A DNA stretch of 64,000 nt, taken from contig NC_056005.1 of assembly GCF_018446385.1 (NCBI RefSeq), positions 65,012,239-65,076,238 on the forward strand, given 5' to 3'. Each line of letters opens with the position of its first letter. Positions within the stretch are counted from its first letter, which is position 1. The position numbers and the translations under genes were made by a program. This DNA comes from Zingiber officinale. Taxonomy: Eukaryota > Streptophyta > Magnoliopsida > Zingiberales > Zingiberaceae. Below the pieces are notes generated by a model. That model had not been told where the DNA came from. It saw only the letters and a program-made list of their open reading frames with translations, and ran no database searches. Of the stretch, positions 1,697 through 62,235 are shown piece by piece.

Positions 1697-2533
1697 GTAA
1701 GAAACCCCTCACCTGCAGTATAAGTAGCTATTCGTGTGATTTTTATGCATTAGTTTAGTCGTATGCAAATTTTGGCACATAGGGTGTGCACTAGCATACA
1801 CCAAGTGCTCGATAGAATGTTTAGCACAGTCGAATGCAATTAGGCATTTTATTAGCTTGGATAAATGCACTAGAAGCATTTACACAGCCTATTTAGTCTT
1901 GCTCCAGCTTTTACAGGACTAGATGTCCAATGGGTGGGCTCCCACAGTCGCCTCTAGGTTTAGATAACCTAGTTCTAGGTCTAGACAACCTAGTAAAAGC
2001 AAGACAAGAATTTATTAGCTTATGTTCAGTATTTTATTTTCAGTAGGGGCACTGTACAGGATTAGATATCCATTGGGCTGGGCTCCCATAGTCGGTCCCT
2101 AGGTTTAGATAACCTAGTAAGCCTTACTAAATTTGGGATTTGCAACCCCGGGTTTAGTTAAGGATGCGCGCATAGCATGTACAGTTGTCGGCCCATTAGC
2201 AGTATGATTATGTATTTTAATCTATTATTTATAGTTTTTCAAAACTCACAAGGGTTAGTTATGATAGTTGAGTTTGAATTCAGTTCCAGCTTAGCTCAGT
2301 TCATGTTCAGTTCAGCTTCCTTTATTGATACTCATGATAGTTTATGATTAGCTTGTATGCCATGCTTTAGTGTTCATGTTCAGTGATTTCAGTATGTCAT
2401 GTGTTAACAAGTTCATCATATGTTTGATAGCATGTTTTAAAAAGCATAAATGCATCGTATGCATGTTTTAGTGAGGTAGATGGTTTCTTACTAAGCGAAA
2501 GCTTATAGATACTTTCTTTTCCTTATACTGCAG
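1697..2533 (+). other. Intron-like block in the Ty3-1 LTR leader
   Basis: CAGGAG|GTAAGAAA is a strong plant splice donor just after the pyrimidine-rich leader. TTATACTGCAG|ATAAAGG is a good acceptor 837 bp downstream. The interval is T-rich, with runs around 2225-2460, as plant introns are. The related LTR of element C has the same acceptor context (TTACTGCAG|ATAAAAG on its own strand) and a comparable donor. Splicing itself is inferred. Confidence 0.45.
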
Positions 2534-9940: not shown

Positions 9941-10212
9941 TGTTCATCCGAGGTAAATCATCGTTATTCTGTACCGGCAAGATATGTTAGTCCCAAACAA
10001 CATCCTGCAACACCAGGTTAGCACAAAATAACAGCACAAATAATAAAGAATATTACGACAGTCTCCGGACTGTCCGGGTCTGACTTCGGATTTCCAACCG
10101 GAAACCCTAGGTCGACCCGACGCCTACTGTTCCCTCTACAGGGAACACGTCCTCACCTACTCCCCTCAGGAGAGATTACCTGATGCCAGTCCGGTCCTCC
10201 AGACCGACTGGA

Positions 10213-10655
10213 CTTTCCGCGTAGGGTTACCACCCTCTAGGACCTAGGGTTACCGCCCCTAGGGGTTTTCTCCACCTAGGGTTACCACCCCCTAGGACTT
10301 AAGGTTGCCGCCCCTTAGGATTTTCCTCCACCTAGGGTTACCGCCCCCTAGGACCTAAGGTTGCTGCCCCTTAGGGTTTTCCTCCACCTAGGGTTACCGC
10401 CCCCTAGGATTTTCCTCCACCTAGGGTTACCGCCCCCTAGGACCTAAGGTTGCCCCCCCCCCCCCCCCTTAGGATTTTCCTTCACCTAGGGTTACCACCC
10501 CCTAGGACCTAAGGTTACCCCCCCTTAGGATTTTCCTTCACCTAGGGTTACCACCCCCTAGGACCTAAGGTTACCCCCCCTTAGGATTTTCCTTCACCTA
10601 AGGTTACCACCCCCTAGGACCTAAGGTTACCCCCCCTAGGATTTTCCCTTGCCTA
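10213..10655 (-). repeat. Tandem repeat array in U3 of SIRE-1 3' LTR
   Basis: A composite unit of about 55 bp repeats roughly eight times with small variations. It is made of two half-units, CACCTAGGGTTACCGCCCCC and CTAAGGTTGCCGCCCCTTAG. A run of about 16 C interrupts one copy near 10455. Confidence 0.88.
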
Positions 10656-10778
10656 ACCGCAGTTAGGACTTTCCTGAAACCTTATTTAACCACGTTAGAT
10701 AACAAGGAATCTTAACTTTGAATCCCTTTGCCATTATCAAAACTGAGGTTCGATTGTCGGATGCTTACTGCACCAACA

Positions 10779-14779: not shown

Positions 14780-16270
14780 TGTTGGATCGAGACGCGCTAG
14801 AGGGGGGGGGGGGTGAATAGCGCTCGTGGCTATTTTGTACGTATCAGAATCGAAAACAGCGTTAGAGTAATTAAAGCAGCGGAATTAAAAACAAACAAAC
14901 ACAAACAGAAGGACACAGAGATTTACTTCGTTCGGAGCCTGTGACGACTCCTACTCGAAGGCCCGCGATCCTTGATCGCTTCCGGTGGGCAACAACTATA
15001 AGCTCGTTAAAAGATTACAATTATGAGTACAATTAAAAGCTATAAGTATTATACCGACAACAAGAAATGCTAAATCTGAAGCTTCGGGTCGTCGGGCACT
15101 TGTAGCAGCACTTCGGAGTGTCTTTTGGAGCAGCACATTGATGAGAGATCACTTGATATTCGTTGTTTTGAGCAGCACGCAGCACTGGAATAACTTTAAA
15201 CTTGATTGATTCAGGTGCTGGTCGAAACCCCCTTATAAAGGGTGTTCAAGGCGGCTTGAAGGCTGTTCAAGGCGCCTCCATGCTGCCAAGTCTTCCGCGT
15301 GGATCAAATCTGATCTGGTCGAACTTCATCCATTCAAGGCGCCTTATAGCCTTCTCAAGGCGCCTTCCAAGGCGCCTTATACTCCCATGAAGGCGCCTTC
15401 GATGAACTTTCGCAGCAAGGTCATCCTTTTCACCCGAGGCGCCTCCAAGCTCCATGGAGGCGCCTCGGATACTGTTCATCCGAGGCAAATCATCGTTATT
15501 CTGTACCTGCAAGATATGTTAGTCCCAAACAACATCCCGCAACACCAGGTTAGCATAAAATAACAGCACAAATAATAAAGAATATTACGACAGTCTCCGG
15601 ACTGTCCGGGTCTGGCTTCGGATTTCCAACCGGAAACCCTAGGTCGACCCGACGCCTACTGTTCCCTCTACAGGGAACGCGTCCTCACCTACTCCCCTCA
15701 GGAGAGATTACCTGATGCCAGTCCAATCCTCCAGACTGACTGGACTTTCCGCCTAGGGTTACCACCCCCTAGGACCTAGGGTTATCGCCCCCTAGGGTTT
15801 TTCTCCACCTAGGGTTACCACCCCCTAGGACCTAAGGTTACCGCCCCCTAGGACCTAAGTTTGTTACCCCTTAGGGTTTTCCTCCACCTAGGGTTACCGC
15901 CCCCTAGGATTTTCCTCCACCTAGGGTTACCGCCCCCTAGGACCTAAGGTTGCCCCCCCTTAGGATTTTCCTTCACCTAGGGTTACCAACCCCTAGGACC
16001 TAAGGTTACCCCCCTTAGGATTTTCCTTCACCTAGGGTTACCACCCCCTAGGACCTAAGGTTACCCCCCCCTTAGGATTTTCCTTCACCTAAGGTTACCA
16101 CCCCCTAGGACCTAAGGTTACCTCCCCTTAGGATTTTCTCTTGCCTAACCGCAGTTAGGACTTTCCTGAAACCTTATTTAACCACGTTAGATAACAAGGA
16201 ATCTTAACTTTGAATCCCTTTGCCATTATCAAAACTGAGGTTCGATCGTCGGATGCTTACTGCACCAACA
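14780..16270 (-). repeat. 5' LTR of SIRE-1 (right copy, 1491 bp)
   Basis: It matches 9245-10778 from TGTTGGATCGAG to GCACCAACA. TATA box near 15231, GGCGCC palindromes about 15245-15470, and tandem CCTAGG array about 15745-16140. It is followed by the TTGGG duplication. Confidence 0.92.
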
Positions 16271-26193: not shown

Positions 26194-29100
26194 TGTCACG
26201 CCCCCAGAGGAGTCCTTATCGAAAAATTTCGGCAGCATCTCCCCTGTACGGGTGACAATATGAGGCATACATACATACAAAATACATCAGCCACATACGG
26301 CTGGAATATATTTACACAATCACGCAGTTATAAAAATATATGAATCAGCCCACACGGCTGTACTAAAATCAACACAGCGGAAATAACAAACAACGATCAC
26401 AAAACACAAAGTATCTAACTGCGAGCCGTCTCGGCTTGACACAATGATATCAAACCAAATACAAGAGAACTCAAATACATAAACAAGTACAAAACCCAAA
26501 ATACAAATAGCGTAAGAAATACCAAAATCGTAAGGTCGTCCTCGAATGTGACGTGGGACTGGCGGACAAGATCTCCAGATGACTCCATAAATCCTTTATC
26601 TGCTACCTGGTGAAATTACCAATATACGGGGTGGTGAGTATAAAGACTCAGCGGGTAATAGACAGATAGTGCATGAGTATAGTAAAGAACTAGAGATGCA
26701 AAGGTATACAGTCTCGTATGGAAATAGCAGATACTACAGTGATATCATAAAAAGTGTCCATACCTGAAACGATATCCTAGGCTAGTAGTAAAAGGTAAAG
26801 TGTAGCAAAGTCCTGCTACAGTACTGCTCATAACTACATGGTATCATGTGAGGTATATACATGTCTACAGTAAGTAAGTCAGTGTCTAAACACATATCAC
26901 AGGTATAAATCTCAACCTATGTAAACATAACAGCATAAATAAACGACAACAGCATAATCTAGCAACAGTAGCATAAGAAACAGCAGTATCAGCAGGTATA
27001 ATAATAACAGCGTATGCACGGATGGTCACTCCCACCTACCCCTCAAGTCCATGACCCCAGTATGGACGAGAGGTCGGGACAATGACAGACTGTACACCAC
27101 TCCAGCTACCACTACTCTCGAGTGGTCGAGGGGACGGTTGCATAGTAGCTAAATAGCTACGTCTGCGATGGGGGTCCCTGCTGCCCGCGACTCCAGCAGA
27201 CACTACCCATGAGTGTACGAGTGGGGGGCATGACAGGACATGCGGCACGCTCCAAGCTACCACTACCCATGAATGGCCGAGCATGCGACCCTGGCCAACA
27301 ACCGCCTCAACCACAAGGGAGACAGGATCGTCGGCAATGCATGCAATGACATGATGCGAACAATGCAACAGTCATCATATATATATAAACAGAAACAGGT
27401 ATGCTACATGAAGCCAGCATGCTCAGTAAGGTGTGTAAATAAACAACAATCAAAGCATGTAAACATGGTATCAGGTGTCTATATATCCAATACCTAATAT
27501 CTAATGTCTGGCATCTGGTATTTGGTATCTGATACCTAGTAATATAGTATCTGCTAAATATCATCGATAACAATAAGAGACTGTATAGAAACAGACACGA
27601 GTAGCTCAAAGATTGAGTGGAAGTATCAAGCACAGGAAAAATAAGAGTGGAGTCAAGATAAACATAGTAGACATCTAAACATATAGCTCATGCACTAAGA
27701 TCAATGTGCTAAAGAGATAAAGTAAGAAATACCCGCCTTTATACATAGATCGTGTCCAGTATTCCCATGTCGAGACGCTTGTCCCGAAATCCAAGTCCTG
27801 TGATCACAATACGCATAACGTAACTAATCAATTATGAACTAGTAAGCTGAATCCATCATGAACCAAATCACCACCTTAACATCGGTATGATCAAGAATCT
27901 ATAAACTCTTATCATTCCATAACCCAATCTGTAGCTCAATTCAAATAAACTAATCCATGACTAAATCATTCATCCTCTAGACTAATCAATTTCAAGCCTA
28001 ATTACTCATATAACTAACTAAGTCCATAATCTAATAGATTAGACTACACATATATCAATGCTAACCACTCACCGGAACGGATGGCTCCGCCAATGACTTA
28101 TAGCTAGTATAACTCTCTGCCCGCGAAGATGTAATCACTGTCCCTCCTAATCAAACATATGAAAAATAATCCAAATCAATTGCTAACTAACCTCTATTCA
28201 ACATATCATATCTGAATATCTAACACAGATCAACCAAACTTAGATCAAGTAATTTGTTACCTATGGCTCCATCTTCTTCTCCAAGGTTGTTCATCAATCC
28301 AACAACTACTCACTGAAGTGGAGGCCGTTGACAGCATTGATGACACGAACTGCGGCAGCAAGAGAAATTAAGCGTTTCATCGAACATATGATCTGCATCA
28401 TCTCATGACCAAATGAGTAATAAGTCGATACAAGAGTGGTGATGATAGATACCTCTGAATCATAGCCATGGCAGAGAAATACAACTACTATCTTCACCGG
28501 ACTGGTGGTTGTAGTGACACGGAGTTAACCAAAGCTAGGGCACAACCCAGCAGAGCTTGCAGCAATGAAGTCGGTAGAGACGTGCGAGGGGGAGGTCCGG
28601 CACTGGACCGGGACGCCGGGATCACTCCGCAAGGGGCTCGAATCGGCAGAGGAGGACATCAACGTGCGGTGGAGTCGTGAGGGTTCAGCACCGAGAGGTA
28701 CAGAGAACACCACTCGGTTGTCGACGATGGCGGATCGAGAGCTTGCTGTGCCTGGTGGCTTCGATTGAAGCGACTCCGGCGATGAATCTGTGCCAACGAC
28801 GAAGTGGACTCAGGGAGAGAAAGAGTGACGGCTAGGGCACGGTGAAGAGGTAGCTCGTGTGCCTGGTTTTCCGGCGAGTATCCGCGGCTAGGGATGAAAG
28901 AACAATGGCCGGATTGAGGCTTGGGCAGTCGGCGCCGGTGAGAAGAGATGGAGGCTAGGGCATGAGTGAAGAAGATGAGAATGGGGATCGGGTGAGAAGG
29001 CGTGCGGCAGTGAGGGAGAAGGAAAGAAAAGAATCGGGAAATTTGTACTTAGGTTTTAAATTCATTAAAACCTAAGTTAACTCCTCAATCACTCCCACTT

Positions 29101-29273
29101 AAATGGTGCTCCAAACAGGTCTTTTCCCAAACATATAATTGATCCCCTTAAAATACGCCAACTGGGCTCTGAAAAATTCTCAGAAAATTTCTAAAAATTC
29201 CTGAAAAATCCAATAAGATTATTTGCCAAATAACTTTATTATTTACTTATAATTTTGGGCATCGTATTTTACA
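26194..29273 (-). repeat. Chromovirus solo LTR (3080 bp) inside copia-2
   Basis: It is bounded by TGTCACG and TTTTACA, with a perfect TCTTC duplication at 26189-26193 and 29274-29278. There is no interior and no second LTR, so it is a solo LTR left by recombination. It shares the U5 block beside TGTCACG (AAATTTCGGCAGCATCTCCC) and the post-acceptor block with the LTRs of A, B and D. Nothing in it looks like a gene. Confidence 0.93.
27798..28260 (-). other. Intron-like block in the solo LTR
   Basis: On the minus strand the donor is GCCATAG|GTAACA and the acceptor GATCACAG|GACTTGGA, 463 bp apart. The bases after the acceptor match those of A, B and D (GACTTGGA then a CGGGACAAGCGTCTCG inverted motif and AAAGGCGGGTA). 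Confidence 0.4.
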
Positions 29274-30639: not shown

Positions 30640-31245
30640 TTTTAGGTTAGTTTTAAAATAAATCTTAAAAAAAATTTAAATTAATTTTAAAATGAATAAA
30701 TTTTTAAGTCAATAAATTTTTAAGTTGATAAATTTTAAAGTTAGAAAGAATATTTAAAGTAATTTAATGGTTTTTTTTAAAAGAATTTTTAAAAGTTTTT
30801 AAAATAAATTTTAAAATAAAATAATTTTTTAAAGATTTTTTTTAAAATAATTTTTAAAAGTTTTTTAAAATATTTTTTAAAATATTTTTTTTTAAAAAAA
30901 CTTTTTTAAAAGTTTTTAAAATCATTTTTAAAGAGTTTTTAAAAGAATTTTTAAAGAGTTTTTTTTAAAGAATTTTTAAAAGAATTTTTAAAATAAAATA
31001 ATTTTTTAAAGAATTTTTCAAAATAATTTTTAAAAGTTTTTTTTTAAATAATTTTTAAAATAATTTTTAAAGTGTTTTTAAAAGAATTTTTAAAAGTTTT
31101 TTAAAATAATTTTTAAATAGTTTTTAAAAGAATTTTAAAAATAATTTTTAAAAATTTTTAAAATAATTTTTAAAGAGTTTTTAAAAGAATTTTTAAAAGT
31201 TTTTTTTAAAATAATTTTTAAAGAGTTTTTATAAGAATTTGACAA
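30640..31245. repeat. Low-complexity TTTTTAAA repeat stretch
   Basis: About 600 bp consist almost only of T and A runs in units like GTTTTTAAAAGAATTTTTAA, 18-30 bp apart and largely self-complementary. It resembles the A/T-rich repeats inside SIRE-1. No gene. Confidence 0.8.
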
Positions 31246-31257
31246 TATTGAAATTAT

Positions 31258-34069
31258 TAATATACAAAAAAAATATAAATAAGGATGTAAATACTTGGAA
31301 TTTGACAATATTGAATTATTATAAGGAAAATAAATATATTGGTTAGATAATTTATCCGGAAATATGTTCGTGTGAATTTTGGAGAATTTATGGAATTTTT
31401 CTAGATTTTTAATGAGATGTTTTAGATTTTATAGGGATCAACGGGTATGATTTAAGGCCTGTTTAGAATAACCGAAGGTGGGAGTTGATTGGGGAATGAA
31501 TCTAGGGTTTAATTTTAAAACCCCTAAGTTATAAGAGTTGCCCGTGCCCTAGCTTCCCACACCGCGCTGAGTTCTCCTTCCTCGAGCCTTCCCTTGCCCT
31601 CACACGAGCACCAAAACCACCTTAGCACCCGATTGTGCTGGTGTTGCTCATTCCGGCGTCAGCCGAACCCTAGGTTGGGGGTGAACGTCGAGCCGGTTGC
31701 TCCCCCCCCCCCCCCCCCTCGTGCCTTGATGTCAAAACGCCACCGTCGATCTCGTCTTCGCTGGTCTCCACAGCCGCTGGACCTAGGTTCCAGTCGGAGA
31801 GGAAGTTGTGAACACAAGCCTTACTTTGGCCATGGGTTTTTGCAGCCTTGCTCGGGCCACAGTAGCTTCACCAGCAGCTAGTCCTGATGGGTATCGCAGT
31901 TGATCATCATGGGTTGCCACCATAGAGGAAGCTCGATGTTTGATTTAGGTAACGAACTAAACCTGAATAGATTAATTAGTTAATTAATCTACATCTCATT
32001 GATAACCTCGGATTGATTGGGAATTTATAAATGGAGTTTTGTTATCAGGTTGGGGTAGTTAACAATTGATCATCATAGATTTGTTTTGGATCATTGGGTG
32101 TATTAACAGAAGATTATTTTGATTTATTGGTTATCCATGTTCATGATTGATAGTAGCATGTGTATGATTAATAGTTGGATTGTTAGCTCATTCTAATTGG
32201 TAGGATAATCAATTATAGTCATAAGAGCTAATTGATTAGTTGGATTGTCAGTTTCATGTCTTGATTGGATAATTAGAGTATGTTAACTAGAATTGTTAAC
32301 TAATTGATTTGGATTAATTCATAAGGAGATTAGTTGTGAAAGAAATGTTGGAGCATTAAATGAGATTAAAATGTAGATTCTTAATCAGATTAGGATTATG
32401 ATTAACTATTTGGTTTATGATAAATCTTAGCTATACTATGCATGCTATGTGATTTGCAGGATGTTGATTTGAGATGAGCGTATCGACATGAGATTATTTA
32501 TCACGATCGACAGATAAAGGCGGGTATTTCTTACTTTGTCTCTTTAGTTCTTTGAACTTAGTGCATGAGCTATGTTTAGATAAGGACTGTTTTACCTTGA
32601 CTCCACTCTTATTTACCTACGCTTGATACTTCCATGTGATCTTTGAGATATTCGTTTCCATATCTATACAGTCTCTTGTTGTTGTCCATCATAAGTAGCT
32701 GATATTAGATACCATGTTTGTGTGCTTTGATTGTTGTTTATTTATGTATTATATTGAACATGCTGGCTTCATGTAGCATACCTAATTTTCTGCTTATATT
32801 TGTATGATGACTGTTGCATTTGGCGCATCATATCATGGTATGCATGTCAACGACCAATTCTCCCTTGCGATCGAGAGAGTTGTTGACCAGGGCCGCATCC
32901 TCGGCCACTCTAGAGAGTGGTAGCTGGAGGTGATGCCGCTTGTCCTGTCGTGACGCACTCGACCACGTATGGGTAGTGGTTGCTGGAGTTGCGAGCAGCA
33001 GGGACCCCCCCTTCGCTGTGTAGCTAGTTAGCTACTTAGCACCTGTCCATCCGGTCACTCGAGAGTAGTGGCGGCCTTTGGGTGGTACAGTTATCATCAA
33101 TCTGGCCTCTCGACCATACAGGGGTCGTGGTGTAGAGAGGTGGGCGGGGTGACCATCCGTGCATACGCTGTTATTATGTCTGTTTTGGCTGCTGCTGTTA
33201 ACATATGTTATTATTGCTTACTTATGCTGTTGTGGTATATTTATGTTGCTGTTGCTTCTTGCTATTGTTCACTTATGCTGATATGCTACCTTATGTTGAG
33301 ATATGCTCTTGTTGTAGGTGGTTAGACCTTGGTTTATTTATTGAAAATGTTTATATACCTTACATATTACCTCTGTAGTTATGCCTCTGTAGTTTGTGCC
33401 CTTTCTGATCATCTATTACCTAGCCTAGGATATGGTTTCAGGTATGAGCATTTATTATGATTTTATTTTTTATATCTGCTATTTCTCTTATGAGACTGTA
33501 TTATTTTGGCATTCTCTATTGGTTTATTTTGTTCATGCACTATCTTATCTTTAACCGCTGAGTTCCAATACTCACCACCTCGCAAATTGGTTTTTTTTCG
33601 CCAGGTAACAAGTAGATGAGTCATGGATGCTTGGAGAGTCTCGGTTGCCGGTCCCACGTCACACTCGAGAATAGTTTTCTTTTTGGGTTTTGTTACTGTT
33701 TGGGTGGTATGTTAATTTTGCGTATTTTGCTTTTGAGCAAGTCACTGTGGATTTTTGGAGTCTAGTCTGGTGGTTGCAGGTATTTTTGTTAGTACCATTG
33801 TTGGTCTTACGTTCGTATTGTTTTGTGTTTTTCGCTGCGTTTACGCTATTGTGTGTTTACTTTCAGCCGTGTAGGCTTATTAAACTGCTTGGTTGTGTTT
33901 ATTTTATTCTAGCCGAGTGGGCTGATGAAATAAACTGTGTGGTTGTGTATATATTCCAGCCGAATGTGGCTGATGTATATTTTGTATGTAGAAATGCTTC
34001 AGATTGTCATCGGTACAGGGGAGAAGCTGCCGGATTTTTGCCTGGCACAGACTCCTCTGGGGCGTGACA
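31258..34069 (+). repeat. 5' LTR of chromovirus A (about 2812 bp)
   Basis: It ends GGGGCGTGACA directly before the primer site. Its start is set by alignment with the 3' LTR start at 36301 and is slightly uncertain. About 31270-31600 and 32450-34069 match the 3' LTR closely, but 31600-32450 does not match its counterpart. A run of about 18 C lies near 31700. The terminal block 33995-34069 matches the U5 block of B, D and the solo LTR. Confidence 0.87.
31949..32460 (+). other. Intron-like block in A 5' LTR
   Basis: Donor TGATTTAG|GTAACG and acceptor GTGATTTGCAG|GATGTTG are 512 bp apart in T-rich sequence. The acceptor side is shared with the 3' LTR, the donor side is not. Confidence 0.42.
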
Positions 34070-36287: not shown

Positions 36288-36300
36288 TAGTGGGGGAGAA
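36288..36300 (+). other. Polypurine tract of chromovirus A
   Basis: TAGTGGGGGAGAA lies immediately before the LTR start TGTAATAT. B and D have the same tract on the minus strand. Confidence 0.8.
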
Positions 36301-36797
36301 TGTAATATAAAAAAAAATATAAATAAGGATGTAAATACTTGGAATTTGACAATATTGAATTATTATAAGGAAAATAAATATATTGGTCAAATAATTTATC
36401 CGGAAATAAGTTTGTGTGAATTTTAGAGAATTTATAGAATTTTTCTAGATTTTAAATGAGATGTTTTAGATTTTATAGGGATCAACGGGTAGGATTTAAG
36501 GCCTGTTTAGAATAACCGAAGGTGGGAGTTGATTGAGGAATGAATCTAGGGTTTAATTTTAAAACCCCTAAATTATAAGAGTTGCCCGTGCCCTAGCTTC
36601 CCACACCGCGCTGAGTTCTCCTTCCCCGAGCCTTCCCCTCACGAGCACCAGCCGAACCTCTTCTCCTCCTCTCACGTCGCCTTGACCACCAACCGCCGAG
36701 TTTCTTTTCCCCTCTTCTCCTCGCAAATTCCTGCAACCACATCCGATGATCTCCTCCTCACGCGAGCAGCAAAGTCGCTGACCCTCTCCTTTCCGAG

Positions 36798-37459
36798 GTA
36801 TGCTCTAATTGATCCGACAAGTAGTTTCCCTAGTAGTTATGGGTGACGATTTGAGTTAGGGATCAAGTTCTGGGTAGTCTCGGCTAGTTGCGATGGTGTT
36901 TCGCTTTCTCCTTGAGCTATTGAAAGCTTTGGGCAGGTTGTTGGTGCTTTACGCCTTGATTTATAATGCTCTTGCCACTTCTTGTTGTCTCTAAAATGCG
37001 GGACAGATTCGGATGCTTGGTTTCTTATTGAGGTTGTTGTTGTTCGCCGATTAGCTGTGGATATAGTTCGGATTCTATTCAAGGTTGCTTTGTTCCTTTG
37101 TATGGCTATGGATTTCTAAGATTTATTCAATAGATTTTAATGTGTTACCTGAGGGCTTCTTGGCTCTTTAGTGTGCTTTTGAATCCTAGGACAATTTGGG
37201 CGTGATTGGAGGTTTGTTCTGTGGTATTCTTGTTTTTGAGTTAGCGGTGAACTTGTGGTCTGATCTAGTAAGTTGAAGGGTGAACCCAATATGGTTTTTG
37301 CTCTTGGTATTGGATCTTGAAAAGTAGTTGGGAATTTTGATAGATTTGGGTGAATCGAGGTTCATAGTTGGATTAGGGTTTTTCCCTAATTAAGTTGGGT
37401 TTCGGTTTAGCTAGTGTCGTTTATGAAATTAGCTAAATTGTACATCATGTGATTTGCAG
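36798..37459 (+). other. Intron-like block in A 3' LTR
   Basis: Donor TTTCCGAG|GTATGC after a C/T-rich leader and acceptor GTGATTTGCAG|GACGTTG are 662 bp apart. The interval is T-rich and unlike the 5' LTR interval, though the acceptor context is the same. Confidence 0.45.
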
Positions 37460-38774
37460 GACGTTGATTGAAGACGGTTGACACGATCTACATATAAAGG
37501 TGGGTACTTCTTGCTTTGTTTTCTTTCAGTACTTTGACCTTGGTGCATGAACTATTTTAGATAAGGACTATCTCACCTTGACTCCACTCTTATTTTTCCT
37601 GCGCTTGATACTTCCATGTAATCTTTGAGATATTCGTTTCCATATTTATACAGTCACTTGTTGCTGTCCATCATAAGTAGCCGATATTAGATACCATGTT
37701 TGTGTGCTTTGATTGTTGTTTATTTATGTATTATATTGAACATGCTGGCTTCATGTAGCATACTTAATTTTCTGCTTATATTTGTATGATGACTATTGCA
37801 TTTGGCGCATCATATCATGGCATGCATGTCAACGACCTATTCTCCCTTGCGGTTGAGAGAGTCGTTGACCAGGGCTGCATCCTCGGCCACTCGAGAGAGT
37901 GGTAGCTGGAGTTGATGCTGCTTGTCCTATCGTGCCGCACTCGGCCACGTGTGGGTAGTGGTAGCTGGAGTTGCGAGCAGCAGGGACCCCCCTTCGCTGT
38001 GTAGCTAGTTAGCTACTCAGCACCTGTACATCCGGTCACACGAGAGTAGTGGCGGCATTTGGGTGGTACAGTTGTCATTGGTCTGGCCTCTTGACCATAC
38101 AGGGGTCGTGGTGCAGAGAGGTGGGCGGGGTGACCATCCGTGCATACGCTGTTATTATGTCTGTTTTGGCTGCTGCTGTTTACATATATTGTTATTGCTA
38201 ACTTATGCTGCTATGGCATATTTATGTTGCCGTTGCTTCTTGCTGTTGTTCACTTATGCTGATATTCTGCCTTATGTTGAGATATGCTCTTGTTGTAGGT
38301 GGTTAGACCTTGGTTCATTTATTGGAAATGTTTATATACATTACACATTACCTCTGTAGTTATGCCTCTGTAGTTTGTGCCCTTTCTGACCATCTATTAC
38401 ATAACCTAGGATATGGTTTCAGGTATGAGCATTTATTATGGTTTTATTTTTTGTATCTGCTATTTCTCTTATGAGACTGTATTCTTTTGGCATTCTCTAT
38501 TGATTTATTTTGTTTATGCACTATCTTATCTTTACCTGCTGAGTTCCAATACTCACCACCTCGCAAATTGGTTTTCTTTCGCTAGGTAACAAGCAGATGA
38601 GTCATGGATGCTTGGAGAGTCTCGGCTGCCTGTCCCACGTCACACTTGAGAATAGTTTTCTTTTTGCATTTTGTTACTGTTTGGGTGGTATGTTAATTTT
38701 GCGTATTTTGCTTTTGAGCAAGTCACTGTGGATATTTGGAGTCTAGTCTTGTGGTTGCAGGTATTTTTGTTAGT

Positions 38775-38779
38775 GCGGC
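38775..38779. repeat. Target site of element B, left
   Basis: GCGGC here and GTCGC at 49750-49754 sit exactly where the uninterrupted 5' LTR of A has ACCAT between TTAGT and TGTTGG. This fixes the insertion as a 5-base duplication although only three of five bases now agree. Confidence 0.6.
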
Positions 38780-41726
38780 TGTCACGCCCCAGGTAGTCCC
38801 TGTCCGAAGAAATTTCGGCAGCATCTCCCCTGTACGGCGGACAATATGAAGCTCAGTATACATATATCTCCATACCTCATAATTCAACATATAATCAATC
38901 CACGCAGTTTAATAAGGAAAGACGATATAAAATCTCGAAAATATATGTACACATCCTACTCCACTACATCGAAGAAAAACCAAATCCACGAAGTAATGAA
39001 AATATTTGCAGCGGAAAACAATAGTAGTAAACCCGAATGTTCAATGTAAAGTCCACAATACAAACCCACAATACAAGTATATAAGATGCAAAAGCAAAAT
39101 ATAATCCAACAAAGAAAATCCTCGCGATAACGGGGCTAGCGACTGGAATCTCTCCTGACGGCCTCAACCTGAAAAATAATAACAACGGGGTGAGTTCAAA
39201 GAACTCAGCAGGTAATCTAATAGATATGTACAGCAACATATAACTACCAGTAATATCCTAAGGTACAGTCTCCTAAACCATAGAATATAACAGGTATGCA
39301 TAACTGAATAAACTGTAATGAGTAACCAGAAGCATGTAATACAGTTTACAGCAAGAATAATAAGAAATGCATAACTGAAATAAACTGTACTCACCTGCGA
39401 GGTTTGGGCGAATGACTGTGGACATACACAGATAAAGATAGTCAGAACAAATACGCATGTATCCTGTATGCATGTCAATCAAATGCAGTCACCCAAGTGC
39501 ATCATCCAATATGCAACAATCACAATAAATGCAATCATGCATATGATGCGATATGACATGGTCACCCCCGACGCTAGTCAACCGTGATGGCGAGACCGAG
39601 TAGGTAGGGCTATGACACGTGCACTCTGTCGTCACTACCCCTGATGAGTGACCGGGATGCTGTCGAGTACACCTATCCTCCTACCTCAAACATAGTGAGG
39701 GGCGTAACGCTCAACTCCCGATACGCAATGACGGGAGGGATCCATGGCACACTACGTGGCGGACCAATGGAGCACCACAGCAACCGCCATACACACCACA
39801 GGTGCGTGCCACTACCCATGGTGGTCACGTTGTGTCGAGCCCTCATGTAGCCGTGGCCGGCTCAACAATAATGGAGTCGTCCATCGCCCCATGCAATCAT
39901 GCGGTATGGTGCATGCGGCTACAATATGACATACCTGAACAAAGGTAAACGTAGATATATAACAGAGATATAAACAACATGAATCCAACAATATATAACA
40001 AGTATCTCCAACATCTAATCATGGGTAGATAAGCACTATAAGTAACCATAACCACGAACACATATACACATGGCAGGAGATATAAGTAAACCAGACTAAT
40101 GTAAAGCATCTAACAGTAGAAGCATGTGATAGGTATCAACTAAGCTAAGACCAGGGAAGAAATAAATCTACCATCTATCACTAGTAACTATATATAAACT
40201 ATACATATCATAAGACAGTATCAAAAGATAAGTCAAAGAGTACCCGCCTCAAATAGAAGGTACAATCCAGTCCTAATCCAATATCGAGATGCTCGTCTCG
40301 AATCAGAGTCCTGTGTCAAACAACATATATATTTTATTTAGCTAAATTCAAATGAAATAGCTAAATAAAATTCCTAAAAACTAAATTAGGGCAAAACCCT
40401 AATCACCACAATCACAACTTACCAATTTAAATCTAATGGTCGATTAGGGTTAGTTACCTAATCCCTAACCACCAATTAGATTAGAAATCCAACGGTTGAT
40501 TAGGGTTAATTACCCTAACCCTAACCATTTCATTGGATTTATTCTACACAATTACATCTACGCAATTTAACAACTAGTTACAACATGTATCAAAATCCCT
40601 CCACATAAACTACTAAGTAAAACTCTAATTCCAATCTAGAACAAGATCATCTAGAATTCAACTCCGAAACATGATCTACAACAAGATCAATTATCCTATT
40701 CCTTACCTCAAATCCAGTTGTTGTTGCTGCTGGATGGTTTACTGCCGAAATCAGAAAGTTCACAAATAGAACAGAGCAGATCGAACCTACTGTTGATGCT
40801 GGATTGAGGTGATTGTTACTGCCGGAACCAAACACAATTCCACAGCAAGAATGGAACCTCACCTCCCCTCACTGGAATCAATAGGATCAAGAAGGAATCA
40901 AAACAAAGATCACATATCAACATGAAATGATGATCTCTGATCAAGCAACACATAATTCCAAATAGAACTCACCTTCAACCAGGACCTCAGTTAGCAACAA
41001 GGAAGAGATCCAAGATCTAATCAAGAAAAATCCAACACAATTGATCCGATACCTTTCCCTAACCAGAACAGAAGAATCAATGAGGAACATAACCTAATCG
41101 AACAGAAACCTTGAATCTATGAAATTCCCGACAACTCTTACCTCTATCGATCACCTCCGGACGATGTCGCACAACCCGATCCGGCGGAGAAGACGCTGAT
41201 TGCTCTGTGAGCAGCTCGTGGAGATGGAACGAAGGGTTGATAGGCTAGGGACGACACAGATCGCGCACCTGTCGTGCCCTAGCCACCTCGTCGGCGTCGC
41301 TCAGCCGTAGAACTCACTGGACAGAACCCTCGGCCGAAGAAGATCTAGGCTCCGCCGTGCTCCAGCAAGCTCCGGCGAACGAAGATGATCACCAAAGGAG
41401 AAACTCCGCTCCCGTCGCCTCCGATTCGTCCGCGAGAGAGAGATCAAAGGAAGGGGAGAAGAGAGGATCGGGAAGGAGGAGAAGGTTCGGGTGAATAGGG
41501 TTCGGCGATGGGTTTGGGTAAGGAAAAGAAAGGAATTTATAATTTAAAACTTTTTCTCACTTAAACAGGTATCCCAAACAGGCTTTATCCGCGCCCGAAA
41601 TTGATCCCCTCAAAACCCGTCGTACGAGCTCCGAAAAATTCCCAGAAAATTCCTAAAAATTCCGGAAAAATTCTATAAGGCTATTTTCCAAATAACCCTA
41701 TTAATTGAATTTTCCGAGATCTCACA
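38780..41726 (-). repeat. 3' LTR of chromovirus B (2947 bp)
   Basis: On the plus strand it is bounded by TGTCACGCCCC and GAGATCTCACA. It matches 46772-49749 except in a patchy segment at about 39560-39930 and some differences near the left end. A minus-strand TATA-like TTATAAAT lies near 41540, followed by a C/T-rich leader. Confidence 0.92.
40311..41141 (-). other. Intron-like block in B 3' LTR
   Basis: On the minus strand the donor is GATAGAG|GTAAGAG and the acceptor TTTGACACAG|GACTCTGA, 831 bp apart. Another strong donor, TTTGAG|GTAAGG, lies inside at about 40709. The other LTR has the same signals at the same spacing (48374-49204). Confidence 0.48.
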
Positions 41727-46771: not shown

Positions 46772-49749
46772 TGTCACGCCCCAGGTAGTCCCTGTCCGAA
46801 GAAATTACGGCAGCATCTACCCTCGATATACATATATCTCCATACCTCGGCCACACACGGCCGGAATAATACAATACAAAAAAACAAGCCACGCAGTTTA
46901 TATCAACATTCCATATAATTCAACATATAATCAATCCACGCAGTTTAATAAGGAAAGACGATATAAAATCTCGAAAATATATGTACACATCCTACTCCAC
47001 TACATCGAAGAAAAACCAAATCCACGAAGTAATGAAAATATCTGCAGCGGAAAACAATAGTAGTAAACCCGAATGTTTAATGTAAAGTCCACAATACAAA
47101 CCCACAATACAAGTATATAAGATGCAAAAGCAAAATATAATCCAACAAAGAAAATCCTCGCGATAACGGGGCTAGCGACTGGAATCTCTCCTGACGGCCT
47201 CAACCTGAAAAATAATAACAACGGGGTGAGTTCAAAGAACTCAGCAGGTAATCTAATAGATATGTACAACATATAACTACCAGTAATATCCTAAGGTACA
47301 GTCTTCTAAACCATAGGACCTACATACAGTCTCCTAACAATATAACGTACAACAATAAGCATATAATACAATTTACTGCAAGAATAATAAGAAATGCATA
47401 ACTGAAATAAACTGTACTCACCTGCGAGGCTTAGGCGAATGACTGTGGACATACACAGATAAAGATAGTCAGAACAAATACGCATGTATCCTATATGCAT
47501 GTCAATCAAATGCAGTCACCAAGTGCATCATCCAATATGCAACAATCACAATAAATGCAATCATGCATATGATGCGATATGACATGGTCACCCCTGACGC
47601 TAGTCACGATGGCATGACCGAGTAGGTAGGGTCGTGACACAGTGCACTCTGTCGTCACTACCCTTGATGAGTGACCGAGTGGGCGGGATGTTGTCGAGTA
47701 CACCTATCCTCCTACCTCAAACATAGTGAGGGCGTAGCTCTCAACTCCCGATACGCGGGAGGGATCCTGTCGCCACTGCTGTCACACTACGTGGCGGACC
47801 ACCGGAGCACTGCAGCGCCATACACACCACAGGTCTGTGCCACTACCCATGCGGTGGTCACGTTGTGTGCGAGCCCTCATGTAGCCGACGAGCTCAACAA
47901 TAATGGAGTCGTCCATCGCCCAGCATGCAATCATGCGGTATGGTGCATGCGGCTACAGAATGTCATACCTGAACGTATCCTCCTCCATATACGTAGGTGC
48001 CAAAAAGGTAAATGTAGATATATAACAGAGATATAAACAACATGAATCCAACAATATATAACAAGTATCTCCAACATCTAATCATGGGTAGATAAGCACT
48101 ATAAGTAACTATAACCACGAACACATATACACATGGCAGGAGATATAAGTAAACCAGACTAATGTAAAGCATCTAACAGTAGAAGCATGTGATAGGTATC
48201 AACTAAGCTAAGACCAGGGAAGAAATAAATCTACCATCTATCACTAGTAACTATATATAAACTATACATATCATAAGACAGTATCAAAAGATAAGTCAAA
48301 GGGTACCCGCCTCAAATAGAAGGTACAATCCAGTCCTAATCAAATATCGAGATGCTCGTCTCGAATCAGAGTCCTGTGTCAAACAACATATATATTTTAT
48401 TTAGCTAAATTCAAATGAAATAGCTAAATAAAATTCCTAAAAACTAAATTAGGGCAAAACCCTAATCACCACAATCACAACTTACCAATTTAAATCTAAT
48501 GGTCGATTAGGGTTAGTTACCTAATCCCTAACCACCAATTAGATTAGAAATCCAACGGTTGATTAGGGTTAATTACCCTAACCCTAACCATTTCATTGGA
48601 TTTATTCTACACAATTACATCTACGCAATTTAACAACTAGTTACAACATGTATCAAAATCCCTCCACATAAACTACTAAGTAAAACTCTAATTCCAATCT
48701 AGAACAGGATCATCTAGAATTCAACTCCGAAACATGATCTACAACAAGATCAATTATCCTATTCCTTACCTCAAATCCAGTTGTTGTTGCTGCTGGATGG
48801 TTTACTGCCGAAATCAGAAAGTTCACAAATAGAACAGAGCAGATCGAACCTACTGTTGATGCTGGATTGAGGTGATTGTTACTGCCGGAACCAAACACAA
48901 TTCCACAGCAAGAATGGAACCTCACCTCCCCTCACTGGAATCAATAGGATCAAGAAGGAATCAAAACAAAGATCACATATCAACATGAAATGATGATCTC
49001 TGATCAAGCAACACATAATTCCAAATAGAACTCACCTTCAACCGGGACCTCAGTTAGCAACAAGGAAGAGATCCAAGATCTAATCAAGAAAAATCCAGCA
49101 CAATTGATCCGATACCTTTCCCTAACCAGAACAGAAGAATCAATGAGGAACATAACCCAATCGAACAGAAACCTTGAATCTATGAAATTCCCGACAACTC
49201 TTACCTCTATCGATCACCTCCGGACGATGTCGCACAACCCGATCCGGCGGAGAAGACGCTGATTGCTCTGTGAGCAGCTCGTGGAGACGGAACGAAGGGT
49301 AGATAGGCTAGGGACGACACAGATCGCGCACCTGTCATGCCCTAGCCACCTCGTCGGCGTCGCTCAGCCGTAGAACTCACCGGACAGAACCCTCGGCTGA
49401 AGAAGATCTAGGCTCCGCCGTGCTCCAGCAAGCTCCGGCGAACGAAGATGATCGCCAAAGGAGAAACTCCGCTCCCGTCGCCTCCGATTCGTCCGCGAGA
49501 GAGAGATCAAAGGAAGGGGAGAAGAGAGGATCGGGAAGGAGGAGAAGGTTCGGGTGAATAGGGTTCGGCGATGGGTTTGGGTAAGGAAAAGAAAGGAATT
49601 TATAATTTAAAACTTTTCCTCACTTAAACAGGTATCCCACCTCCGTACGAGCTCCGAAAAATTCCCAGAAAATTCCTAAAAATTCCGGAAAAATTCTATA
49701 AGGCTATTTTCCAAATAACCCTATTAATTGAATTTTCCGAGATCTCACA
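46772..49749 (-). repeat. 5' LTR of chromovirus B (2978 bp)
   Basis: It is bounded by TGTCACGCCCC and GAGATCTCACA like the left copy. The telomere-like ACCCTAACCCTAACC near 48575 is in both LTRs and lies inside the intron-like block (48374-49204). Confidence 0.92.
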
Positions 49750-50875: not shown

Positions 50876-51288
50876 GTGCCACTGATAAAAGTAAAATACT
50901 TGTTATCTTTTAATACTTCTAATATATAATGCCTTGGCATTTTAATAAGCACCTTGTGTGCCAAAATCCCTAAAGTCTTGACTTTGGGATCTTCTTAAGG
51001 CCTTGGCCTTTTTCTTTCTTTTCTTTATCTGTCTTATACTTGTTAATACTTCTAAAAGAATTTAATGGAACTCTTATTTTTCCACTAGAATACATGGCTG
51101 TTCATGCTTGTTAAAATCGCAAATGAAAACTAGAAAATCTGCATATCATACAAGCTTAAACTAAATCTAAAACTTGTTAGAACTAAAACCTTAAAGCTTG
51201 CTACAACAGAATTAAATAACAACATGAACTTAGAACTAAACTTGGGTATAAACAGTTAGAGCTTAAGGTAAATCATGTATAGGAATAT

Positions 51289-51293
51289 GATGG
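51289..51293. repeat. Target site duplication of element D, left copy
   Basis: GATGG is repeated exactly at 62236-62240. Confidence 0.92.
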
Positions 51294-54029
51294 TGTCACG
51301 CCCCAGAGGAGTCTCTGTCCGAAGAAATTTCGGCAGCATCTCCCCTGTACGGCGGACAATATGAAACTTTCTACATATCACATATACATCAGCCACAGGC
51401 GGCTGGAATGATAACAATAAAATAAAAACAAACACCACGCAGTTTATAAAGATATTCAGCCTCTGGCTGTCACAACCACGCAGTTAATAATAGTAATCAA
51501 TAACAATAGGACTCTGACTCGAAATCCACCCTACTCCACTACACTCGTAAAGCTCAAATCCAACGAACTCACCTCTTCTGCCGTCCAGGCAGGCACGTAG
51601 TAAAAATGAAATCCAATATCATATCAAAATCCATCAAAAGGTGTCACTCCATACAATATTCATAGGAAAAATCCAAAGACAATACTAAAACAAAGTCTGA
51701 TATAGAAAAAGGCCAAAATAAAACAAATAACGAACTAGTAGAGAACTAGCTCTACGTGCATATGGGGGGGCCAGCGACTGGAACTGCTCCGGACAGCCTC
51801 AACCTGAAAATATCAACAATGGAGGCGGGGTGAGTCCAACACTCAGCAGGTACAACTGATATGCATAATAAAACAAATAACAGACAACACTAATCATGCG
51901 TACAGTCTCCTGAATACGAGAAGGAATAAATGCAACTGAAACGAAATCAGGAGATAACTGTACTAACCGGAATCAAGGTACAAAGGTAACAGGTCGTCAG
52001 ACCGAAGAAATCATAATCCTGTATGCATGTCAATCAAATGCATCCATACAAATGCAGCATATAAGTGCAGCAATCACAACAATAAAATGCAATAAATGCA
52101 TATGGTGACCGTGCACTCGGACATCACTGCTCCTGACAGTGACCGAGTGGACGGTATCTTCGAGTACTCCTGTCCTCTGGCCCCAAATCATAAATGGGGA
52201 GCTCAATGCTCTCATCTCCCAGACACATATGACGGGAGGATATCTCCACACTACCGAGTCTCCGACCAACGCAGCCAAGCAGAGTCCACCATCGCAGCTA
52301 CCATGCGCTACACTAAATGCCAGCGGAGCCAAGCAGGCGGGCGCACGCGGCTACCACGCTCGAGTCCTCGAGACCAGCGGAGCCAACAGCAGAACCACCA
52401 CACTCCAGCGGATATACAACTAATCCATGGGTGGTGTGTGCAGTACATGTAACTGGCGATGGGCTCAACCAAAGTGGAGCCGACAATCGCACAGCATGCA
52501 ATCATGATGCATGACACTAAAAACATGGCATAGTCCATATAACTAGATACAAGTGTGTACCACTGGAAGAAGTATCAAATAGAAGGTACACCAATCAAAT
52601 AGGGTATCAAATAAACCCTAGATCCAGAACATATCATAGCATGTGGTTGGTTCACTACCTAAAGCATATGTGATCAGGTAGATATCATGCAGTGCAGCAT
52701 AAATAAACAAACAAACATGTAACTAATCATGTAGCGACCAACCGAAACAAACAGATAACACAATTATTGTTATATGTTAAACATATTATCATGCATATCA
52801 AAAGACATAAGTCAAAGTACCCGCCTCCGAAAATAGAAAGGTCCGATCTGACTCCGAGATACTCGTCTCGCGTCAAAGTCCTGTGTCACATATAAATAAA
52901 TATATTTTATTTAGCTACAATTTACATAAATAGCTAAACAAAATTCCTAAAACTATTTAGGGCAAAACCCTAAACCAAAAACACATAAACATAATCAATA
53001 TACACATGATCGTCTAATTAAACCCTCCAATTCAGAACAAGATCTACCACAGAACTCAAATACACTTAATCCTCACCCTAATTCACAATCCAAAAGATTA
53101 CGGTGAAGGTTGCTTGCTGCTAAAACATTGAACAAGCAATTGTTTGTTGATCCACAGCACACAGAAACTCACGGTAATTCTTCCTTCAACTCACAACCCT
53201 CATTTCTGTGTACTAAGTCTACTGTTGCTGATCAACAAACACCACAGCCCCACTTCCTCTCCAATTCCGTGACCTAAATTGGTAGCAAAGAGAAATTCGA
53301 ACTAGCTTACCTCCTTTGATCAATTAGGGCACGTGAATTGAACACACAGTGCTGGCTCGATCAAACTGACAGAGAGATCAGTGAAGGAGGTGCTCTGCCG
53401 AGGTGCGTCCGTGCAGAGATGGCCGAAGAAGTGAGGAGACACGAGCGGTCAGAAATCGGGCGGCGCCGGCAGTGAAGTCGGCAGTGTACAACAGATGTGA
53501 GACTCGGCGATGTGGCGGAGATACTAGGGCACACTGAAGAGGAAATCAGGAGTCGGGGCAGAGGCTAGGGCACCGGCGATTGGGTCGGCGTCGGCTTCTG
53601 TGGTCGACGTCGGGTGGCTAGAGCAGGCGGTCGGGCGGCGGTGATTTGCGGCGACGGCGCTAGGAACTCCACGGCAAGGCTAGGGCAGAGGATGGATCGC
53701 CGGCAATGGCTTGCGCTCGCCGGCGCTTGGGCAGGGCTCGGGAGAAGTAATCGCCGCCGGCGGTTAGGGCAAGGAGGAAGAAGGGAGACGGCGTCGGGCT
53801 CGGGTGTGAGGAGGGGAAGAAACGAAGGTTTTAAAGAAATTAAAAGAAAAGAAAAGGAAAAGGAAAAAAAAAATAAAACTTTTCCTTATTAAAATGGGTA
53901 GCCTAAGCAGGCTTTTTCCTAGGACCCGTTCTTATCCCCATCAACTCGTCTCACGAGCTCAGAAAAATTCGAAAATGTCAAAATTCGGAAAATCCCTTAT
54001 TAAAAATCGTCATTTTCCGGTATTTTACA
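51294..54029 (-). repeat. 3' LTR of chromovirus D (2736 bp)
   Basis: It is bounded by TGTCACGCCCC and GGTATTTTACA and matches 59535-62235. A patchy segment at about 52110-52440 differs by many short gaps from about 60330-60640. A GC-rich leader-like stretch lies at about 53390-53830 (minus strand). Confidence 0.93.
52881..53310 (-). other. Intron-like block in D 3' LTR
   Basis: Donor AAAGGAG|GTAAGC and acceptor GTGACACAG|GACTTTGA on the minus strand are 430 bp apart. The second LTR has the same pair at the same distance (61083-61512). The acceptor is followed by the inverted motif CGAGACGAGTATCTCG. Confidence 0.5.
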
Positions 54030-54065
54030 TTCTCCCCACTAATAAAATTTGGTCCCCAAATTTGA
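54030..54065 (-). other. Polypurine tract of chromovirus D
   Basis: Plus strand TTCTCCCCACTAATAAAATT is the complement of AGTGGGGAGAA, directly before the 3' LTR. Confidence 0.82.
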
Positions 54066-54149
54066 TATCTACCATCGCAAGTACTAATAACGAGATAATA
54101 ATAATAAATCTTTGAGCGGTAAATAAACTCACTTACCTCAAGTGAAAAG

Positions 54150-59516: not shown

Positions 59517-59528
59517 GCTCTGATACCA
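59517..59528 (-). other. Primer binding site of chromovirus D
   Basis: TGGTATCAGAGC on the minus strand matches initiator tRNA-Met, six bases inside the LTR. Confidence 0.9.
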
Positions 59529-59534
59529 CTAAAT

Positions 59535-62235
59535 TGTCACGCCCCAGAGGAGTCTCTGTCCGAAAAAATTTCGGCAGCATCTCCCCTGTACGGCGGACAA
59601 TATGAAACTTTCTACATATCACATATACATCAGCCACAGGCGGCTAGAATGATAACAATAAAATAAAAACAAACACCACGCAGTTTATAAAGATATTCAC
59701 CTGTCACAACCACGCAGTTAATAATAGTAATCAATAACAATAGGACTCTGACTCGAAATCCACCCTACTCCACTACACTCGTAAAGCTCAAATCCAACGA
59801 ACTCACCTCTTCTGCCGTCCAGGCAGGCACGTAGTAAAAATGAAATCCAATATCATATCAAAATCCATCAAAAGGTGTCACTCCATACAATATTCATAGG
59901 AAAAATCCAAAGACAATACTAAAACAAAGTCTGATATAGAAAAAGGCCAAAATAAAACAAATAACGAACTAGTAGAGAACTGGCTCTACGTGCATATGGG
60001 GGGCCAGCGACTGGAACTGCTCCGGACAGCCTCAACCTGAAAATATCAACAATGGAGGCGGGGTGAGTCCAACACTCAGCAGGTACAACTGATATGCATA
60101 ATAAAACAAATAACAGACAACACTAATCATGCGTACAGTCTCCGAAATACGAGAAGGAATAAATGCAACTGGAACGAAATCGAGATAACTGTACTAACCG
60201 GGATCAAGGTACAAAGGTAGCAGTCGTCGGACCGAAGAAATCATAATCTTGTATGCATGTCAATCAAATGCATCCATACAAATCTATAAGTGCAACAATC
60301 ACAACAATAAAATGCAATAAATGCATATGGTGACGTGCACTCGGACATCTGCTCGGCGGTGGTAGGAGAGTGGGCGGTATCTTAGTACTCTGTCCTCTAG
60401 CCCCAAATCATAAATGGGGAGCTCAATGCCATCTCTACCTGATGACGGGAGGATATCTCTGCAAGCTACCACTTTGAGTCTCGACCAGCGGAAAGAGAGT
60501 CCACCATCTGCGCCACCTGCTACACTAAATGCCAACGGAGAGAAGGAGAGCGGCGTGCGGCTACACGTTGAGTCCTCGGAACCAGACCAAGCAGAGAACC
60601 ACCACACTCCGGCCGGATATACAACTAATCCATGGGTGGTGTGTGCAGTACAAACTGGCGATGGGCTCAACCAAAGTGGAGCCGACAATCGCACAGCATG
60701 CAATCATGATGCATGACACTAAAAACATGGCATAGTCCATATAACTAGATACAAGTGTGTACCACTGGAAGAAGTATCAAATAGAAGGTACACCAATCAA
60801 ATAGGGTATCAAATAAACCCTAGATCCAGAACATATCATAGCATGTGGTTGGTTCACTACCTAAAGCATATGTGATCAGGTAGATATCATGCAGTGCAGC
60901 ATAAATAAACAAACAAACATGTAACTAATCATGTAGCGACCAACCGAAACAAACAGATAACACAATTATTGTTATATGTTAAACATATTATCATGCATAT
61001 CAAAAGACATAAGTCAAAGTACCCGCCTCCGAAAATAGAAAGGTCCGATCTGACTCCGAGATACTCGTCTCGCGTCAAAGTCCTGTGTCACATATAAATA
61101 AATATATTTTATTTAGCTACAATTTACATAAATAGCTAAACAAAATTCCTAAAACTATTTAGGGCAAAACCCTAAACCAAAAACACATAAACAAAATCAA
61201 TATACACATGATCGTCTAACTAAACCCTCCAATTCAGAACAAGATCTACAACAGAACTCAAATACACCTAATCCTCACCCTAATTCACAATCCAAAAGAT
61301 TACGGTGAAGGTTGCTTGCTGCTAAAACATTGAACAAGCAATTGTTTGTTGATCCACAGCACACAGAAACTCACGGTAATTCTTCCTTCAACTCACAACC
61401 CTCATTTCTGTGTACTAAGTCTACTGTTGCTGATCAACAAACACCACAGCCCCACTTCCTCTCCAATTCCGTGACCTAAATTGGTAGCAAAGAGAAATTC
61501 GAACTAGCTTACCTCCTTTGATCAATTAGGGCACGTGAATTGAACACACAGTGCTGGCTCGATCAAACTGACAGAGAGATCAGTGAAGGAGGTGCTCTGC
61601 CGAGGTGCGTCCGTGCAGAGATGGCCGAAGAAGTGAGGAGACACGAGCGGTCAGCAATCGGGCGGCGCCGGCAGTGAAGTCGGCAGTGTACAACAGATGT
61701 GAGACTCGGCGATGTGGCGGAGATACTAGGGCACACTGAAGAGGAAATCAGGAGTCGGGGCAGAGGCTAGGGCACCGGCGATTGGGTCGGCGTCGGCTTC
61801 TGTGGTCGACGTCGGGTGGCTAGAGCAGGCGGTCGGGCGGCGAGTGAGGCTAGGGCAGAGGATGGATCGCCGGCAATGGCTTGCGCTCGCCGGCGCTTGG
61901 GCAGGGCTGGAGAAGAAGAGAAGAGGCTCGGGAGAAGTAACCGCCGCCGGCGGTTAGGGCAAGGAGGAAGAAGGGAGACGGCGTCGGGCTCGGGTGTGAG
62001 GAGGGGGAAGAAACGAAGGTTTTAAAGAAATTAAAAAGAAAAAGAAAAAGGAAAAAGGAAAAGAAAAAAAATAAAACTTTTCCTTATTAAAACTGGGTAG
62101 CCTAAACAGGCTTTTCCGGACCCCGTTCTTATCCCCGTCAACTCGTCCGTACGAGGTTCGAAAAATTCCCGAAAAATGTCCAAAAATTCCAGAAAATCCC
62201 CTTATTAAAAATCATCATTTTTCCGGTATTTTACA
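59535..62235 (-). repeat. 5' LTR of chromovirus D (2701 bp)
   Basis: It is bounded by TGTCACGCCCC and GGTATTTTACA, matching the left copy. Intron-like block at 61083-61512. Nothing codes for a host protein here. Confidence 0.93.

Follow-up and report, generated by a model that had tools for sequence, protein, structure and literature searches.

Splice signals and rare intron-less copies indicate leader introns inside chromovirus LTRs of Zingiber officinale

The long terminal repeats (LTRs) of a family of chromoviruses in Zingiber officinale carry one, and sometimes two, candidate introns in the leader, and comparisons of genomic copies indicate that these introns are really spliced by the plant. 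The complete explanation that we favor, and that we regard as very probable, is that the LTR would provide a gene-like leader, that splicing of this leader would be partial, that intron-bearing RNA would serve as the main template, and that the exon-intron module could drift or be swapped. The elements described first reside in a stretch of 64,000 nucleotides, called the window here (NC_056005.1, positions 65,012,239 to 65,076,238 of the forward strand, assembly GCF_018446385.1), which belongs to a genome of 3.09 Gb. For the families of this window represented by elements A, B and D and by a solo LTR, splicing is proposed by homology only.

Element B occupies 11 kb of the minus strand of the window, with LTRs at positions 62235-59535 and 54029-51294 and the sequence CCATC at both outer flanks. 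Its 3′ LTR (51294..54029, minus strand) is 2736 bp long and has TG...CA ends, and its 5′ LTR (59535..62235, minus strand) is followed, in minus-strand order, by the primer binding site TGGTATCAGAGC at 59528. The open pieces of B match protease, reverse transcriptase, RNase H and then integrase, in that order, with the integrase zinc domain scoring 23.4 bits, which is under the cut-off of 25.5; matches to reverse transcriptase and RNase H are also present in A. A Chromo domain near the end of pol scores 27.1 bits in A (Pfam cut-off 25.1) and 17.2 bits, below the cut-off, in Ty3-1, and none was found in the open pieces of B. These domains fit Ty3/gypsy chromoviruses, and the clade name Tekay (Del) is a label taken from the first-pass annotation of the window. 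Repeats of other kinds are also present in the window, including two AT-rich regions of similar make-up with a repeat period of ~11-12 nt (11838-12394 and 30738-31248) and 56-nt tandem repeats in each copy of a duplicated region (10197-10675 and 15730-16166).

The layout of these LTRs resembles that of the 5′ end of a gene. A TATA-like promoter is located ~190 nt into the LTRs of both A and B, and in B it reads TTTAAA (53830..53835, minus strand), ~194 nt from the start of the LTR. Judging from its position, transcription of B would start ~30 nt downstream of TTTAAA, and the putative exon 1 spans 53311..53805 (minus strand), with an approximate 5′ end. The 500 nt preceding the donor have a GC content of 62% and zero ATG triplets.

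The first-pass annotation had claimed a donor and an acceptor at 53310/52881, 41141/40311, 28260/27798, 36798/37459 and 1697/2533, and direct reading of the sequence finds all five pairs in place. The predicted intron of the B 3′ LTR (52881..53310, minus strand) is 430 nt long with 36% GC and has the boundaries GAG/GTAAGC...ACACAG/GACTTT, where slashes separate exon and intron. Its counterpart in the B 5′ LTR (61083..61512, minus strand) has identical spacing and is likewise 430 nt, as had been claimed for this pair. The two LTRs of A also match each other in the spacing of donor and acceptor, with the same 831-nt intron predicted in the 3′ LTR (40311..41141, minus strand; GAG/GTAAGA...ACACAG/GACTCT) and in the 5′ LTR (48374..49204, minus strand). 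The solo LTR (26194-29273, flanked by GAAGA) has a predicted intron at 27798..28260 (minus strand; TAG/GTAACA...TCACAG/GACTTG), and the Ty3-1 LTR has one at 1697..2533 (plus strand; GAG/GTAAGA...CTGCAG/ATAAAG) that is missing from a diverged relative, described below. In A, B and the solo LTR both splice sites fall within the LTR, and the predicted intron is thus neither in nor between coding regions. A search of window positions 51200-54100, which cover the B 3′ LTR only, gave no match to a self-splicing intron or any other Rfam family at E values up to 1.

Identical spacing had also been claimed for the two LTRs of element D (window 31258-34069 and 36299-38779, separated by only ~2.2 kb), and this claim does not hold. 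The D 3′ LTR has a predicted intron at 36798..37459 (plus strand; GAG/GTATGC...TTGCAG/GACGTT), and the D 5′ LTR keeps the acceptor, with its intron end at 32440..32459 (plus strand). However, the donor of the 3′ LTR has no counterpart in the 5′ LTR, and from exon 1 through the greater part of the intron the two are unalignable. The LTRs are 96% identical over their first 336 nt and 93% identical over 1,295 nt from just after the acceptor, and between these regions nothing aligns except ~90 nt at the acceptor (71%). As we read this comparison, the apparent element D is probably a recombinant or the product of a module swap. A pair of LTRs that are alike on either side of an unrelated stretch fits the earlier suggestion of a first exon and intron that are free to diverge or to be exchanged.

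Conservation after the acceptor had been claimed as well, and CAG/GA(C/T) is indeed found in A, B, the solo LTR and both D LTRs. The inverted motif said to follow it is restricted, in the form CGAGACGAG(T/C)ATCTCG with up to 3 mismatches, to A and B, and is degenerate in the solo LTR and D; in B this hairpin motif reads CGAGACGAGTATCTCG and lies just inside exon 2 (52855..52870, minus strand). A later exon motif, (A)GG(C/T)GGGTA, is shared by A, B, the solo LTR and D as proposed, and the conserved AGGCGGGTAC occupies 52817..52826 (minus strand) in exon 2 of B. The statement that the sequence before the acceptor differs widely was too strong, since A and B can be aligned over roughly the final 105 nt of the intron and are 74% identical from -104 to +110 around the acceptor.

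The same arrangement recurs throughout the genome. The exon-2 start together with the hairpin motif was found at 7,919 + 7,866 sites with up to 2 mismatches, compared with 0 for a reversed-pattern control, and the exact motif is absent from the viral contigs and prokaryote genome contigs searched. Among 5,324 sites with the exact exon-2 start, 5,004 (94%) are preceded by YAG, 56 by RAG and, by subtraction, 264 by no AG; a reversed pattern again gave 0 sites, and the near-invariant letters before exon 2 are those of a splice acceptor. For the upstream region we used 59 sites, which fall into 41 LTR clusters by single linkage, with ≥80% identity required across 300 nt or more of the 500-nt upstream segment; they are not a random sample, as eight came from the search with B and 51 were among the first 100 listed places on contig C1, the last 21 of these from hand-picked stretches.

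Within the interval 100-800 nt ahead of the acceptor, 31 of the 41 clusters contain the donor word AGGTAAG, compared with an average of 1.14 in shuffled sequences (maximum 4 in 100 sets) and with one of 41 on the antisense strand. Among 7-mers AGGTAAG ranks first by enrichment score and fourth by raw count, where it is outranked by three overlapping words of GTGCCCTAG. Nine of the ten clusters that lack it have weaker donor candidates. The positions flanking the donor carry 0-0.75 bits each, and conclusions on the donor are based on the word counts instead of on an untrained donor weight matrix. GC content is lower in the intron than in exon 1 in all 31 clusters measured of the 41 (means 0.314 and 0.504), and the AG/GTAAG donor and CAG/G acceptor are those of a U2-type GT-AG spliceosomal intron.

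Two further words are common in the same clusters. The words GTGCCCT (34 of 41) and GCCCTAG (33 of 41) of GTGCCCTAG lie upstream of the acceptor in exon 1, for example upstream of position 1503 in locus L085, and shuffles predict them in about 2-3 clusters. Downstream, 31 of 41 clusters carry GG(C/T)GGGTA(C/T) at a distance of 53-65 nt from the acceptor; it might act as a weak second donor, as a poly(A) element or in some other way.

Near its 3′ end the intron can form a hairpin. In the B 3′ LTR this element spans 52904..52944 (minus strand), with arms at 52930-52944 and 52904-52918 that covary across LTR clusters, and its 3′ arm includes CTAAA, which resembles a branch site, and stops 23 nt short of the intron end. 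The best stems in the last 80 nt of the intron average 11.4 Watson-Crick pairs over the 41 clusters, compared with 6.7 after mononucleotide shuffling. In 36 of the 41 the 3′ arm has a CTAAA-like core, located 20-36 nt ahead of the acceptor. When the arms were anchored independently, 438 of 504 positions in 36 of the 41 clusters (the five without anchors being dropped) formed standard pairs; one pair is A-T in 24 clusters, G-C in eight, G-T in three and unpaired in one. Arms permuted between clusters gave a mean of 414 and a maximum of 430 in 2,000 trials, and slid arms gave at most 255; the covariation is modest evidence, because permuting the arms leaves the relatedness of the clusters in place.

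This region might instead be mainly a poly(A) site at the R/U5 border, with AAUAAA held in the hairpin and cleavage near ACACAG. The poly(A) hairpin of HIV is an analogue for such an arrangement, and 20 of 41 clusters do have AATAAA no more than ~50 nt ahead of the acceptor, often in the 3′ arm of the hairpin. However, AATAAA is absent from the other 21 clusters, the near-invariant letters match a splice acceptor, and the precise joint copies described below require splicing in any case. We therefore consider it unlikely that polyadenylation is the main role of this stretch, and as a substitute for splicing the proposal fails. A poly(A) site may overlap with a spliced intron, in which case splicing may take a premature poly(A) signal out of the 5′ leader.

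If the leader is spliced and the product reverse-transcribed, some LTRs should lack the intron exactly. We read all 56 RAG-preceded sites individually. In 41 of them, which fall into 15 exon-1 clusters, the end of the intron is missing; the other 15 sites retain it and are acceptor mutants. The number 41 is a lower bound, as the search was limited to RAG joints and YAG joints would hide among the 5,004. Of the 59 sampled sites, 55 fit the intron-end pattern, three are variants judged by eye and one (L055) is ambiguous, with no clear intron-less copy among them. For 25 of the 41 intron-less copies, a neighboring intron-less copy lies within 20 kb. At G000:C5:11981122-12018286, six consecutive intron-less LTR copies are spaced ~7.4 kb apart, as if LTRs and internal parts alternated in tandem.

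An exact joint could be proven base by base against close intron-bearing siblings in two of the 15 clusters. Compared with L089, locus L085 exactly lacks two introns, of 83 and about 194 nt, and both absences are seen alike in its partner LTR. This partner, L086, has the joint as well, lies 7.0 kb away and is 97.25% identical to L085 over 1,200 aligned nt. The outer ends of the pair are flanked by ATATT, the LTR of L085 is broken off 358 nt past the joint, and a canonical primer binding site was not found in a 601-nt piece of this pair. The second case is L077, which exactly lacks one intron that is present in L090 and L091, with flanks that are nearly or fully identical.

Other clusters are informative to differing degrees. 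L059 aligns to L051 up to a few nucleotides from the joint. In the L062 joint family, 23 or more LTR copies span the joint, but only the exon-2 side of this joint is proven, because the match to its relatives L121 and L122, which have their own donor and acceptor, ends 88 nt before it. In the cluster of L087 and L100-L102 the joint ends in GGTAAG, which makes the donor ambiguous. By eye, the ending TTGAG is seen in 13 of the 15 joint cluster examples (in the example or in a member of the cluster) and in ten of 36 listed donors. AGGTAAG is still present further upstream in 14 of the 26 joint copies examined as 3-kb loci, and upstream introns may therefore often stay, or else the word is unused.

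For Ty3-1, the sole match to the predicted joint, with 3 mismatches, is the diverged relative L118. It is 78.6% identical to Ty3-1 over 817 nt that stop no more than 4 nt from the predicted donor, and the alignment resumes at the first base past the predicted acceptor with 63.8% identity over 439 nt. No joint copy with up to 3 mismatches was found for B or the solo LTR, and none was found for A in the exact RAG search, where the sole match to GAG/GACTCTG (L113) has a different exon 1. The comparisons of L085 with L089, of L077 with L090 and L091, and of L118 with Ty3-1 support the splicing of the leader within the LTR that the first-pass annotation had proposed, and copies with exact joints imply that spliced RNA was made and reverse-transcribed.

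These copies also bear on whether the intron matters to the element. A spliced intron could be a useless passenger, and the fact that intron-less copies multiply, to at least 23 LTR copies in one joint family, is what such an intron would allow. We find this improbable, given that the donor is the most enriched word, by score, inside an otherwise unalignable module, and that intron-less copies are rare (at least 41 among 5,324 exact sites, and none clear in the sample of 59). It is highly improbable that the joints are DNA deletions between short AGG...AGG repeats and that the conserved motifs serve a role other than splicing, for although the donor and acceptor junctions have AG(G) in common and microhomology deletion could yield the same product, and although the search pattern dictated the acceptor side of each joint, with the donor side checked against close siblings in only two of 15 clusters, like joints occur in 15 exon-1 clusters, two separate introns are exactly absent from L085 and likewise from its partner LTR, and the GTAAG donors, the U-rich introns and L118 all speak against deletion.

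Systems with features in common are known from both viruses and plants. In retroviruses such as HTLV-1 and the foamy viruses, the major splice donor is located in the R region of the LTR and the unspliced RNA is the genome. These viruses share a donor inside the LTR with the elements described here, but their acceptors are in the internal region, whereas here donor and acceptor are within one LTR. In plant genes, introns in the 5′ UTR support intron-mediated enhancement, with a promoter, a GC-rich first exon and a U-rich first intron. The plan of promoter, exon and intron is the same, but those are host genes and not reverse-transcribed genomes.

Excerpts of a 2025 review (PMC12786077) describe plant LTR retrotransposons as generally without introns, with Ogre and EVADE as exceptions, and excerpts of another paper (PMC3735527) include Bagy2, Ogre and CRR among the spliced elements. 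The barley Ty1/copia element BARE1, as portrayed in the latter, resembles the present case in its partial splicing, its U-rich intron and its separate RNA pools for translation and replication (pools that we infer here), but its intron, of 104 nt, is located in the gag part and gives rise to a Gag-only mRNA, whereas here the intron is inside the LTR leader. Ogre, a Ty3/gypsy element of the Tat lineage, has a gag-pol intron removed from a subset of transcripts (PMC6317226, in part), although that intron is outside the LTR and the lineage is another one. EVADE, CRR and Bagy2 are likewise plant LTR elements with spliced subgenomic RNAs, but according to portions of the same papers (PMC12786077; PMC3735527) their splicing serves coding regions. 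The available part of a reference survey that covers Tekay (PMC6317226) mentions an intron for Ogre only, the terms ‘splic’ and ‘intron’ have zero occurrences in the main text of a machine-learning paper on plant LTRs (PMC11656987), and an LTR-internal intron is not described in the accessible sections of PMC7010299, PMC10309623, PMC7828637 and PMC2832683. We recognized no description of such an intron for Tekay elements in the open-licence PMC literature, judged by titles and the starts of abstracts.

We propose that these LTRs are organized as a plant gene is at its 5′ end. Behind a TATA-like promoter would come a non-coding, GC-rich exon 1, then a single U-rich GT-AG intron or two of them (83 to 837 nt where measured), and lastly a conserved exon 2 that would continue across the LTR in the direction of the primer binding site. 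A portion of the transcripts would lose the intron or introns to the plant spliceosome, as the genomic copies with exact joints indirectly show. Nearly all new copies would derive from intron-bearing RNA, to judge from the counts. Spliced RNA that is reverse-transcribed would give rise to a new element with intron-less LTRs, and such copies can apparently multiply. Splicing may mark an RNA pool for export and translation, as host 5′ UTR introns do, and its partial nature would leave an intact pool for replication, with the hairpin over the branch site perhaps tuning or limiting the reaction. Exon 1 and the bulk of the intron would be free to drift or be swapped between families, because only the splice signals must persist.

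Splicing as a means of removing upstream ATGs was considered and rejected, as exon 2 of B still holds 43 of them, with seven in the intron. A first intron that enhances expression or export seems a more likely explanation. A broader proposal, which we put forward only tentatively, is that a whole chromovirus lineage uses the LTR intron as a sorting device. Here, a structured branch site would keep splicing partial, spliced leaders would become mRNA fit for export and translation, and only intron-bearing RNA would serve efficiently as the genome. The intron would then be a mark for packaging or proofreading that outlasts reverse transcription, and the splice signals would allow exchange of promoter-proximal exons between families.

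A retroelement that copies itself via RNA should shed any intron that is spliced, and thousands of LTRs in this genome keep one. Rare intron-less copies are the record of that splicing, and together with the thousands of intron-bearing LTRs they suggest that unspliced RNA is favored as the template. The question of how plant retrotransposons divide their RNA between mRNA and genome thereby becomes directly testable. Annotation, dating and promoter studies take the LTR as a single block, and an LTR of the kind proposed here would be a mobile unit of promoter, exon and intron that is able to splice, which would be relevant to the origin of new exons near genes.
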